Assembly (NCBI RefSeq): GCF_009762795.1
Contig: NZ_CP046400.1
Coordinates: 248,001 to 312,000, forward strand
Length of the DNA stretch: 64,000 nt
Origin: Pseudodesulfovibrio cashew
Lineage (GTDB): Bacteria; Desulfobacterota; Desulfovibrionia; Desulfovibrionales; Desulfovibrionaceae
Direction of reading: 5' to 3'
Below the pieces are notes generated by a model. The model searched no databases. It worked only from the letters and a program-made list of their open reading frames with translations, and was not told where the DNA came from. The position numbers and the translations under genes were made by a program. Positions 28,185 through 31,458 of this stretch are shown piece by piece (position 1 is the first letter of the stretch; each line of letters starts with the position of its first letter).

Positions 28185-28327
28185 GCCTGGTCCTTTTGCT
28201 TGCTGAAGTTTGCCTGGGGATACGGGAACCGAATTGCATCTTGCGTGCCAGTTGCGCGAAGCGTTTTTTTACCCTACTGTGCTCTGGTTACATCGAAATA
28301 CTTTGCCCATGATTTCAGGGGAATGTC

Positions 28328-30610
28328 ATGAATGAAGACCTGTTGGCGCTCATCGGCGGCACGCCGCTGGTGAAGATCCGTCATTTGAATCCGCATCCGA
28401 ACGTCAAGATTTTGGCGAAGATCGAGTCCCAGAATCCCGGCGGGTCCATCAAGGACCGTGTGGCCGCCGCCATGATCGCGGCAGCCGAGGCCTCGGGCGA
28501 ACTGACCCGCGACAAGACCATCATCGAGGCCACCTCGGGCAACACCGGGGTGGGGTTGGCCATGGTCGCGGCCATCAAGGGATACCGCATCAAGCTGCTC
28601 ATGCCGGAGACGGCCAGCGAGGAGCGTAAGATGATCATGGCCGCCTACGGCGCGGAGCTGGAGCTGACACCCGGACACCTGGCCACGGACGGGGCCATTG
28701 AACAGGCTTACCGTTACGCCCGCGAGGAACCGGACAAGTACGTGCTCATGGACCAGTACAACAACCCGGCCTCCATAGACGCGCACTACAACGGCACGGG
28801 CCGAGAGATCTGGGAGCAGACCGGAGGCGAGGTCACCCACTGCGTCATGGCACTGGGCACCACAGGCACGGCCATGGGTATCGCAAAGCGGCTGCACGAG
28901 GAAGGCGACGCCTATGTGGCCGCGGTGGAGCCGTACGCAGGGCACAAAATCCAGGGCCTCAAGAATATGCTCGAATCCTATCCGCCCGGCATCTATGACA
29001 AGTCTGCCCTGGACGAGGTGCTGCACGTGGACGACGAGACCGCCTTCGACACCTGCCGCAGGCTGGCCCGCGAGGAAGGGCTCTTTGTGGGCATGAGCTC
29101 GGGCGCGGCCATGGCCGGCGCGCTGCAACTGGCCGAACGCCTGGACTCGGGCCTGATCGTCGTCATCTTCCCCGACTCGGGCGAACGCTATCTTTCCACC
29201 CACCTTTTCCGCCGCCAGGCCGGTTCCGGCATCACGGTGCACGACATGGCAACTGGCACGGACAAGCACCTGAACACCGGCGGCGGGCTGGGCGTGTACG
29301 CCATGGGCCCGAGCCTGGACAATCCGGACGGCCTGGACGCATGGCGGCGGGTCATCCTCCTCGACGTCTTCACCCGCCACCTCGCCTCTCGCGGAGTGGA
29401 CATCTCCGCCGCCGTGGGCCTGACCGACATGGACGACCGCACCCTTGCAGCGGCCCGCGCCGAGAACGGAGCCCGGGACACCTTCGCCGCCAGCCGCAGG
29501 GAGGCCATCCTGGCCCGCGCCGCGCAGATGGGCGTCTCCGACACAATCGACTTTCCCCTGTCGTCGGCCTCCAACGACGCATCCCTGGACCTGTGCCGCA
29601 AGCTGCTCGGCAAGGGGCTGGCCTACGAGAAGCTCCGCTCCGTCTACTTCGACGTATTCCGAGACAAGCGCTACGGCGAGATCGGAACAGTAGATATGGA
29701 CAAGGTCTCCGGCGGCCGCACCGTGGACCTGGACGCCTACGTCAAGGACAATCCGCTCGATTTCACGCTGCTCAAACGCGCCTCGTTACTCGACTTGAAG
29801 CGGGGCGAGGTGCTCGAAACCCAGTGGGGCAACGTCCGCCCGAGCTGGTTCCTGCAGCACGCCGCCGCCGCGCTCTCGGCCCAGCCGCGCACGGACGTGA
29901 TGATCGGCAGCGAGAAGCACCGCTTCCCGCATCTGGAGAACCTGCGCGCCATCTGGTCCGTGACCGGACGCGAGCTGCAGGCCTGGATGGTCTGCCAGCA
30001 GGCCACCGACACGGGTGGCGGCGACCTCGATTCCGTGGCCGAAGCCTTGGGCGGATTCCGCGCGGCCCGGCTCTGGCTCCTGTCCGCAGCCAGCCGCAAG
30101 CCGCTGTGCGCCAGCCCGGAGAACCTCTCCATGTGGGCGCGCAACTGGCGCAAGATACAGGAGTGCGCCGCCGCGCTGACCCTCTCCCTGGACGCCAGGG
30201 GCGACGCGGTTCCAGCCGGTGTTGAACAGGCCGTCTTCGACCTCAAGGCCGGGCTCAAGACCGCCCTGGAGGAAGACCTCTCCCTGCACCATTTCTGGCC
30301 CGTGCTCTTCCGCTTCGTGAAGCGCGTCAACGGCTGGCTCGCCGCCGGTGAGTTGAGCGGCGCGTCCGCCCGGACATGCCTGGAGGAGCTCAAGGCCGTG
30401 GACGCCGTCCTCGGCATCTTCGACCCCGAACAGATGCCCATCCCTCTCTCCGACCTCCCGGCCGGGGTTCAGGGCATGCTGGCCGACCGCCAGAAGGCGC
30501 GGGAGTCCAGGGACTTCGCCGCCTCGGATGCGCTCAGGGATGAGATCGCCGCCGCCGGATACCGGTTGGAGGATACGGCGGGAGCGCCCAGAGTGTTTAA
30601 GGTGGTTTAG
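28328..30610 (+). CDS. Cysteine synthase fused to a degenerate cysteinyl-tRNA synthetase
   Basis: A 760-residue fusion. Residues 1-300 are an O-acetylserine sulfhydrylase/CysK-type PLP enzyme: NPGGSIKDR with the Schiff-base lysine (Lys42), TSGNTGVG, and a phosphate loop near GTTGTAMG. From about 320 to the end the sequence follows cysteinyl-tRNA synthetase: strand and helix after GPSLDNPDGLDAW, LTDMDDRTLAAA, the FPHLEN segment, SPENLSMWARNW and a canonical C-terminal end (DFAASDALRDEIAAAGY). The HIGH motif, the KMSKS loop and most zinc ligands are replaced, so aminoacylation is unlikely. The PLP half looks active. The fused part may bind tRNA-Cys, cysteine or its adenylate and regulate synthesis. 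Start ATG with GGGGAA upstream; terminator downstream. Confidence 0.9.
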   Translation: MNEDLLALIGGTPLVKIRHLNPHPNVKILAKIESQNPGGSIKDRVAAAMIAAAEASGELTRDKTIIEATSGNTGVGLAMVAAIKGYRIKLLMPETASEERKMIMAAYGAELELTPGHLATDGAIEQAYRYAREEPDKYVLMDQYNNPASIDAHYNGTGREIWEQTGGEVTHCVMALGTTGTAMGIAKRLHEEGDAYVAAVEPYAGHKIQGLKNMLESYPPGIYDKSALDEVLHVDDETAFDTCRRLAREEGLFVGMSSGAAMAGALQLAERLDSGLIVVIFPDSGERYLSTHLFRRQAGSGITVHDMATGTDKHLNTGGGLGVYAMGPSLDNPDGLDAWRRVILLDVFTRHLASRGVDISAAVGLTDMDDRTLAAARAENGARDTFAASRREAILARAAQMGVSDTIDFPLSSASNDASLDLCRKLLGKGLAYEKLRSVYFDVFRDKRYGEIGTVDMDKVSGGRTVDLDAYVKDNPLDFTLLKRASLLDLKRGEVLETQWGNVRPSWFLQHAAAALSAQPRTDVMIGSEKHRFPHLENLRAIWSVTGRELQAWMVCQQATDTGGGDLDSVAEALGGFRAARLWLLSAASRKPLCASPENLSMWARNWRKIQECAAALTLSLDARGDAVPAGVEQAVFDLKAGLKTALEEDLSLHHFWPVLFRFVKRVNGWLAAGELSGASARTCLEELKAVDAVLGIFDPEQMPIPLSDLPAGVQGMLADRQKARESRDFAASDALRDEIAAAGYRLEDTAGAPRVFKVV

Positions 30611-30637
30611 CCTGACGGCGTCTTTAAGAGAAAAGGA

Positions 30638-30664
30638 AAGCCGCCCTTTTGGGGCGGCTTTTTT
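30638..30664 (+). terminator. Intrinsic terminator of the cysteine synthase fusion
   Basis: Stem AAGCCGCCC / GGGGCGGCTT with loop CTTTT, followed by six T. Confidence 0.9.
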
Positions 30665-30699
30665 CATGGACTGTGCGTCTGCGGTGCGGGCGAAGAGTC

Positions 30700-31415
30700 A
30701 GCGTTGGGGCCTGCGGCCCCTCGCTTCCAAAGATCGCGCTTGCAGCGCGCGGAGAGCCGGGTTTGGGGGCTTTGCCCCCAAAAGCCCTCCATGCCCTGCC
30801 GGGCGGGCCTACTTTCTTTGGCAGCGCCCAAAGAAAGTAGCAAAGAAAGGTCGCTGTGAATGGTATCCCCGCCCCGGTGCTCACTGGCGAGAATCTCATC
30901 CATCCCGGTCGGCTCCGGACTACGTGGAGTGAAACGCCCTGCCAGCCTTATCGATCGGAGGCCGTCCGACTCCGGGCGGGTTACGGCACAGGAGCCGCCG
31001 CCCGGGTTGGTGAGCTTCTAAGCCCGTGAGCAAGGGGCTGACGGTGGTCCTTCGAATGATTATTCGAAGAGCCAAATGACTTCTTTTTATTCGATCGGCT
31101 AGTGCCAGCTCGGCTTGATGGGCAAAAGGCAATTGCCGCTTTCGGAAAGTTACCAATTACCCCGGCAGCGACCGGTCATCGAGTTCGAGGCTTAGAGCCG
31201 CTTGCACACGGCTGAAGTGGAGCCCGAAGCGCGCCTGCCCGCAGGCTTTCGCTTTTCGGGCAGCGGAAGCCGTGTTAGCGGCTCTTAGGCCCGAGATCGC
31301 GCTGCAGCAACAACAGAGCGACTTTTGCTTACTTTTGGGCGCTCCGGTCCAAAAGTAAGTCGCCCCGAAAGGGGCGAAACCCTTACAACATCAATCGCCG
31401 CCGACAGGCGGCTTC
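30700..31415. other. Hairpin-rich non-coding region
   Basis: No convincing gene lies between 30665 and 31458. The stretch has at least seven stable stems: GGGGCC-TGC-GGCCCC (30706-30720), TTTGGGGGC/GCCCCCAAA (30762-30782), a 13-bp perfect stem CTACTTTCTTTGG (30809-30840), CTTCGAAT-GATT-ATTCGAAG (31050-31069), a roughly 95-base nested cruciform (31192-31287), CTTACTTTTGG/CCAAAAGTAAG (31328-31359) and CGCCCC-GAAA-GGGGCG (31361-31376). The segments around 30822-30856 and 31316-31345 are inverted versions of each other (GCGCCCAAA, AAGTA, GTCGCT in the same order). That suggests either a bounded repeat element or a large structured RNA. Confidence 0.55.
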
Positions 31416-31458
31416 CCTATCTCTTTTCAACCGTAAAAAGGCTCTACCCCCTACCCTT

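Follow-up and report, generated by a model that had tools for sequence, protein, structure and literature searches.

The window analyzed here, a stretch of 64,000 nucleotides from a complete genome of 3.91 Mb (positions 248001-312000), contains a gene that fuses a cysteine synthase to a paralogue of cysteinyl-tRNA synthetase (CysRS) which, to judge from the loss of its catalytic motifs, is unable to charge tRNA and which retains the anticodon-binding domain. The fusion recurs across the phylum, and in half of its hosts it is the only cysteine synthase detected, a point that an earlier note on the sequence of the window had missed. We suggest, tentatively, that tRNA-Cys is still bound by the fused CysRS domain, which no longer charges it, and that through this domain an O-phosphoserine-type cysteine synthase is controlled.

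Results

The open reading frame starts with ATG and consists of 760 codons and a stop, giving a 760-residue protein (Table 1). Pfam, NCBIfam, phmmer and the comparison of an AF2 model by VIA all agree that it joins a cysteine synthase to a CysRS paralogue, as the earlier note had claimed. With Pfam, PALP was found at residues 8-283 (E 3.6e-70), tRNA-synt_1e, the core of class I (C) synthetases, at residues 320-543 (E 1.5e-21), and the CysS_C anticodon domain (PF23493) at residues 708-750 (E 9.4e-7), all above cut-off. Among the NCBIfam models, cysKM (TIGR01136) matched residues 7-294 with 353 bits, above its cut-off, and cysS matched residues 319-753 with 112 bits, far under its cut-off of 340 bits. 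On these matches the second half is clearly, if distantly, related to CysRS; a single-sequence phmmer search of the PDB returned E. coli CysRS (E 9e-25) in collinear order across 433 residues, as the earlier note had said of this half.

Table 1. Features of the fusion gene and its flanks (positions in the window)
Feature	Position	Strand	Basis
Shine-Dalgarno-like AGGGGAA 5' of the ATG	28317..28323	+	sequence
Entire fusion gene	28328..30610	+	open reading frame with full-length homologues
PLP-dependent cysteine synthase domain, CysM-like, residues 1-294	28328..29209	+	Pfam, NCBIfam, VIA
PLP-binding lysine of the SIKDR motif (Lys42), invariant in the family	28451..28453	+	alignments
Substrate loop, residues 206-220, HKIQGLKNMLESYPP	28943..28987	+	alignments
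Linker plus first part of the CysRS fold, residues 295-318; model confidence low at about 289-300	29210..29281	+	AF2 model
CysRS-like nucleotide-binding fold, CP insertion and helical domain, residues 319-705, without HIGH/KMSKS	29282..30442	+	Pfam, NCBIfam, phmmer, VIA
GLDA replacing HIGH, residues 335-338	29330..29341	+	alignment to CysRS
Block of highest conservation in the CysRS-like half, residues 433-510	29624..29857	+	alignments
Former zinc-ligand stretch, residues 511-539: H511 (C209), H535 (H234), L539 (E238)	29858..29944	+	alignment
Degenerate stretch at the expected KMSKS site, residues 557-567	29996..30028	+	alignment
CysS_C anticodon-binding domain, residues 708-752	30449..30583	+	Pfam and alignment
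Strong terminator-like hairpin AAAGCCGCC..GGCGGCTTTTTT, 27 bases past the stop	30637..30661	+	sequence

The AF2 model reached a pLDDT of 87.5 and a pTM of 0.61, the latter making the relative placement of the two halves uncertain. VIA aligned the model with CysRS at Z 40.2 for 1u0b (431 residues, to model residue 759) and Z 41.5 for 8qhp, and its N-terminal half with the CysM/CysK enzymes E. coli CysM and M. tuberculosis CysM (3dki) at Z of about 40 to 41. Residues 301-759 are thus modeled as a complete CysRS fold (Z of about 40), in which neither HIGH nor KMSKS is intact.

The N-terminal half appears to be an active PLP fold-type II cysteine synthase (CysK/CysM) with a full-length fold, in agreement with what had been read from Lys42; besides K42, the motifs TSGNTG (69-74) and the GTTGT phosphate loop (G177-T181) are conserved. 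The assignment to CysK, made at the same time, holds as far as cysteine synthase is concerned, but the enzyme looks more like the O-phosphoserine/CysM type than like the O-acetylserine (OAS) type that is fed by CysE, which the earlier note had likewise missed. The substrate loop reads HKIQGLK212NM..ESYPPGI, in which GLKNM is invariant in the order (Lys212 in 34/34) and is also found elsewhere in the phylum, whereas the genome's own CysE-paired CysK has IQGIGAGF at this place (OAS-type CysK: IGAG). At the position of Lys212, M. tuberculosis CysM has Arg220 (motif YALRNM; sequence checked against the PDB), a residue that reportedly selects O-phosphoserine, and E. coli CysM has Arg210. A short query of the PDB with the loop sequence returned low-complexity hits for the most part and was set aside. 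The loop is no proof of O-phosphoserine use, since the basic residue of the fusion is Lys and not Arg, and E. coli CysM, which is an OAS enzyme, has Arg at the same position. In a tree, the CysK domains of the fusions, a group of synthases with the GLK loop and M. tuberculosis CysM, the protein of an entry titled "an O-phosphoserine dependent cysteine synthase" (PDB 3dki), are split from OAS-type CysK with 98% support. Taken together, O-phosphoserine is the likely acceptor of the fusion synthase.

Seventeen CysK loci were taken from genomes that lack CysE and had been selected as lacking the fusion; 14 of them carry GLK[HN]M or GLKNL, one of the 14 having proved to be a cut fusion. Standalone GLKHM-type synthases of such genomes in the phylum (L101, L103-L108, L111, L112, L114 and L115) form a separate clade of candidate O-phosphoserine enzymes. 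A point that weighs against O-phosphoserine use is that the classical SerC model (TIGR01364) was strong in only 4 of the 20 fusion genomes tested; most of the CysE-less ones (e.g., G164, G185, G189, G210 and G219) lack classical SerC, and these probably have another phosphoserine aminotransferase.

The fusion was detected in 94 of 150 sampled genomes of the order (E 1e-60 or better) and in 155 of 395 of the phylum (E 1e-80 or better), the latter from 48 families, mostly as open frames of about 760-880 residues; 44 full-length members of distant families share 37-46% identity with the window protein. The CysK domains of the fusions group together in the tree, a branch with 100% support parts their CysRS domains from real CysRS, and the only standalone protein inside the group (L110), at first a candidate descendant, is actually a fusion that runs off the end of its contig. 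For these reasons the fusion is, as far as sampled, old and of a single origin in both halves, and within the phylum sample no standalone member derived from it by loss was found. DVU0663 was considered as a member and set aside, as cysK-cysE adjacency in the order suggests an ordinary CysK instead; plasmid records yielded, among the matches listed, ordinary CysRS only, at about 28% identity or less. Possible second copies were seen in G093, where two adjacent family-like open frames (L072) may be an antisense-frame artifact, and in G033, a genome with 5% contamination and two fusion matches.

Outside the window, the same genome holds the genuine second cysS for which a search had been recommended (546 bits), one tRNA-Cys gene (detected by its pattern, with ARAGORN in agreement) and an ordinary CysK (449 bits, G000:C1:3238078) immediately ahead of a CysE gene. 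With this CysK and CysE, the organism does not need the fusion to make cysteine. In the order and phylum samples, too, a genuine cysS accompanies the fusion. On the other hand, 77 of the 155 fusion genomes had no CysE match at a threshold of 1e-30, and in 76 of these 77 an ordinary CysK was missing too, every CysK-like match being of fusion strength only, with the best E above 1e-120. In those 76 genomes the fusion is the sole cysteine synthase detected. Among the 78 fusion genomes with CysE, 74 have an ordinary CysK. The association of CysE with ordinary CysK gives a Fisher p of about 4e-38 when kinship is ignored, and the CysE-less hosts belong to at least 28 families. From these counts, CysE and ordinary CysK seem to be gained or lost jointly and the fusion seems independent of CysE; as judged by this genomic proxy, it works without CysE. 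Its sole-synthase status in 76 genomes also backs the prediction that it forms cysteine from activated serine and sulfide. In the exceptional CysE-less fusion genome (G445), the ordinary CysK (G445:C44:531-1424) contains an in-frame TAA and is apparently decaying after the loss of CysE.

Residue counts in the CysRS-like half were made on 78 fusions, 34 from Desulfovibrionales and 44 from the rest of the phylum. The replacement of HIGH and KMSKS noted before is confirmed for the window protein, in which alignment to CysRS puts GLDA at the former site and finds no KMSKS; what had been described as "most" zinc ligands amounts to exactly three of four, with C28, C209 and E238 (E. coli numbering) replaced by M326, H511 and L539 and H234 kept as H535. 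In none of the 78 fusions are HIGH and KMSKS both intact: 74 lack the second His of HIGH (among them 40 of the 44 outside Desulfovibrionales) and 77 lack the second Lys of KMSKS, the lone exception being a likely alignment accident. All four zinc ligands (CCHE) are kept in 29 of the 44 fusions outside Desulfovibrionales versus 0 of 34 within, and many of the former retain KMSRS; from this we infer that the ancestor probably still bound cysteine. Retention of the pocket showed no correspondence with the presence of CysE among the 44 distant members (hand count). One relative, L121, has the fusion as its sole synthase, a lost zinc pocket (TVHV) and the full set of anticodon residues.

The anticodon domain behaves differently from the active site. 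Residues R721, R725, F730, D734, R737 and D749 of the fusion correspond to R423, R427, W432, D436, R439 and D451 of E. coli CysRS, which we take to be anticodon contacts from the name of the Pfam domain and from the 1u0b structure. R423, D436, R439 and D451 are kept in 78/78 fusions, position 427 is R or K in 76, position 432 is aromatic in all, and PF23493 was found in 39 of 42 members. In Desulfovibrionales, the fraction of CysRS-invariant sites retained is 0.89 in the anticodon domain and falls to 0.28 across both active-site regions (p 3e-5); in the rest of the phylum the fractions are 0.78 and 0.58. On the simplest reading of this pattern, the constant job of the CysRS-like half would be the binding of tRNA-Cys, although these residues could instead be kept for folding.

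Within the genus, dN/dS lies between 0.08 and 0.25 in each segment of the fusion gene, indicating purifying selection, with 0.13 for the anticodon domain versus 0.25 for the HIGH half. These values and the recurrence of the fusion (94/150 in the order, 155/395 in the phylum) rule out a decaying or frameshifted gene. With its own Shine-Dalgarno-like site, a terminator-like hairpin and neighbors that are not conserved, the gene appears to be a stand-alone unit. No conserved operon partner was found next to it, the neighbors varying by genus (MptE-like, RsfS-GpmI, exonuclease III and fumarate reductase genes), which lends a regulatory link no support from gene order, and guilt by association was discarded as a guide to function because of these changes. 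An Rfam search upstream for a riboswitch or T-box gave no match approaching significance.

Several features of the surroundings may be recorded. In the window, a gene for a 590-residue MptE-like protein (PF01973; 26412-28184, minus strand) diverges from the fusion, with no functional link seen, and positions 30611-31450, about 840 bases past the fusion terminator, hold no clear gene and contain imperfect repeat-like pieces such as TTTCTTTGGCAGCGCCCAAAGAAAGTAG. In two families of the order (f3 and f5; L060, L067, L071, L073, L075 and L077) an RsfS-like gene lies directly upstream of the fusion, in most cases with a gene for GpmI phosphoglycerate mutase also just upstream, an arrangement that other lineages do not have.

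Discussion

In the reading that we favor, and that we consider quite possible, though short of probable: (i) the synthase half would be a CysM-type PLP enzyme with O-phosphoserine as acceptor and sulfide as donor, hence independent of CysE; (ii) the CysRS-like half would bind tRNA-Cys through the anticodon, without charging it; (iii) this half would tell the synthase half whether tRNA-Cys is free or charged, in the way of the dead HisRS-like domain of GCN2 and following the logic of HisZ; and (iv) control by tRNA-Cys would stand in for the feedback normally given by CysE. Inhibition of CysE by cysteine is the usual control of cysteine synthesis, and a CysE-independent synthase lacks this control point. 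The ancestral fusion, its zinc pocket kept, would probably have sensed cysteine too; in Desulfovibrionales the cysteine input would then have been lost and the tRNA-reading part alone kept. The binding of tRNA-Cys, its allosteric coupling to the synthase and the direction of that coupling we infer from conservation and from analogy with other systems. The broader claim, that the cognate tRNA directly gates a bacterial enzyme of amino acid biosynthesis by way of a dead synthetase built into it, may also be correct, and we hold it with more doubt.

Three functions had been suggested for the CysRS-like half when the gene was first noticed, namely, sensing of cysteine, sensing of tRNA-Cys or a tRNA-dependent reaction. 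Of these, we favor tRNA-Cys because the zinc pocket is gone in 34/34 Desulfovibrionales while the anticodon residues are kept in 78/78 fusions. Cysteine sensing is the less favored suggestion for Desulfovibrionales, with their pocket lost; for the 29 of 44 relatives that have all four zinc ligands, cysteine sensing via the CysRS pocket is plausible.

It is rather unlikely, in our view, that the CysRS-like half is a feedback subunit in the manner of HisZ, which would bind cysteine or another small ligand and inhibit the synthase, with no role for tRNA. Such a subunit would suit both the cysteine-binding site, CCHE, kept in those 29 relatives despite the second His of HIGH being lost in 40 of the 44, and a CysE-less biosynthesis deprived of its usual feedback point. 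The pocket, however, is absent from all 34 Desulfovibrionales fusions compared, including the window protein, and from some relatives that have no other synthase than the fusion (e.g., L121, with TVHV), and the anticodon domain is kept in all.

Less probable still is a relic, with the CysRS-like half reduced to a ligand-free partner in folding or oligomerization on which the synthase now depends. Conservation does peak in the core block at residues 433-510 (consensus YEKLRSVYFDV..YG..TVDL..Y.KDNP.DFTLLKRASL.DLK.G..T.WGNVRPSW..Q), which could be a domain interface, and catalytic and zinc residues have been lost progressively. Against a relic, the whole half is under purifying selection (dN/dS 0.12-0.25), the anticodon domain is selectively retained, and the search for standalone members derived by loss produced none, its one candidate being the contig end mentioned above.

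We regard as quite improbable a scaffold or channel in which the CysRS-like half brings tRNA-Cys, or CysRS itself, to the site of synthesis, passing new cysteine on to charging. The retention of the tRNA-reading part after the loss of catalysis and the genuine cysS in the same genomes would be in line with such a role, but the fusion is not genetically linked to cysS, no docking partner is indicated, and bacterial CysRS is usually monomeric. Very improbable indeed is a SepCysS-like synthesis in which misacylated (seryl or phosphoseryl) tRNA-Cys is shown to the PLP site and becomes Cys-tRNA-Cys: a tRNA-reading module on a PLP sulfhydrylase with a loop like that of O-phosphoserine enzymes would fit, and methanogens offer a precedent for tRNA-dependent cysteine synthesis, by SepCysS in archaea (PMC5424206 and PMC8762117), but an enzyme loading Ser or Sep onto tRNA-Cys would be required (PMC8762117 reports SepRS in other bacterial groups and, tentatively, a divergent SepRS-like gene in Deltaproteobacteria), the substrates of synthases with this fold are free amino acids, over which the active site closes, and the genome has a genuine cysS.

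Control through tRNA-Cys can be set beside several known systems. M. tuberculosis CysM, an O-phosphoserine sulfhydrylase, resembles the synthase half in fold, PLP lysine, basic residue in an L[KR]NM loop and lack of need for CysE; unlike the fusion, it has no CysRS-like half and carries Arg220 in place of Lys212. The sulfur source of that enzyme is the carrier CysO. The CysE-paired CysK of the same genome shares fold and PLP chemistry with the fusion but has the OAS-type loop, adjoins cysE and bears no fused domain. With CysRS (1u0b, 1li5 and 8qhp) the second half shares the whole fold, including the anticodon domain with R423, D436, R439 and D451; it differs, at about 22% identity, in the HIGH, KMSKS and zinc ligands lost from the window protein and in the attached synthase. 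HisZ, the HisRS-like regulatory subunit of ATP phosphoribosyltransferase, is likewise a catalytically dead paralogue of a synthetase that works for an enzyme making the amino acid in question; it is of class II, a separate subunit that binds histidine and has no anticodon domain, whereas the fusion retains its tRNA-reading domain. In GCN2 a dead HisRS-like domain is fused to an enzyme as a proposed sensor of uncharged tRNA for the kinase, but GCN2 is eukaryotic and acts on translation, while the partner in the fusion makes the amino acid itself. MshC, the CysRS-derived mycothiol cysteine ligase (3c8z), is another CysRS paralogue and shares the core fold (Z 39.5), which VIA follows to model residue 699, as opposed to 759 for CysRS 1u0b; it is active, works without tRNA and does not have the anticodon-binding domain, and the fusion is the reverse, with the domain present and the motifs absent.

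We propose, on the strength of these analogies, that the fusion joins the known group of regulatory paralogues of aminoacyl-tRNA synthetases. We know of no other dead synthetase paralogue that sits on a biosynthetic enzyme for the same amino acid and keeps its tRNA-reading domain. A description of a cysteine synthase-CysRS fusion was not found in the open-access literature, most subscription papers and preprints lying outside that scope, and the papers cited above on tRNA-dependent cysteine pathways do not mention it in their relevant passages.

The evolutionary series within the family, from zinc pocket kept to zinc pocket lost, could serve to separate cysteine sensing from tRNA sensing. Sulfate reducers and their relatives are rich in iron-sulfur proteins and heme, and the fusion suggests a route to cysteine without CysE in these bacteria; in half of the carrier genomes, where it is the only cysteine synthase detected, the cysteine supply would pass through it. 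If the proposed mechanism is true, much of the phylum would set its cysteine synthesis by the charging state of tRNA-Cys, acting on the activity of the enzyme, and not by T-box control or feedback through CysE.
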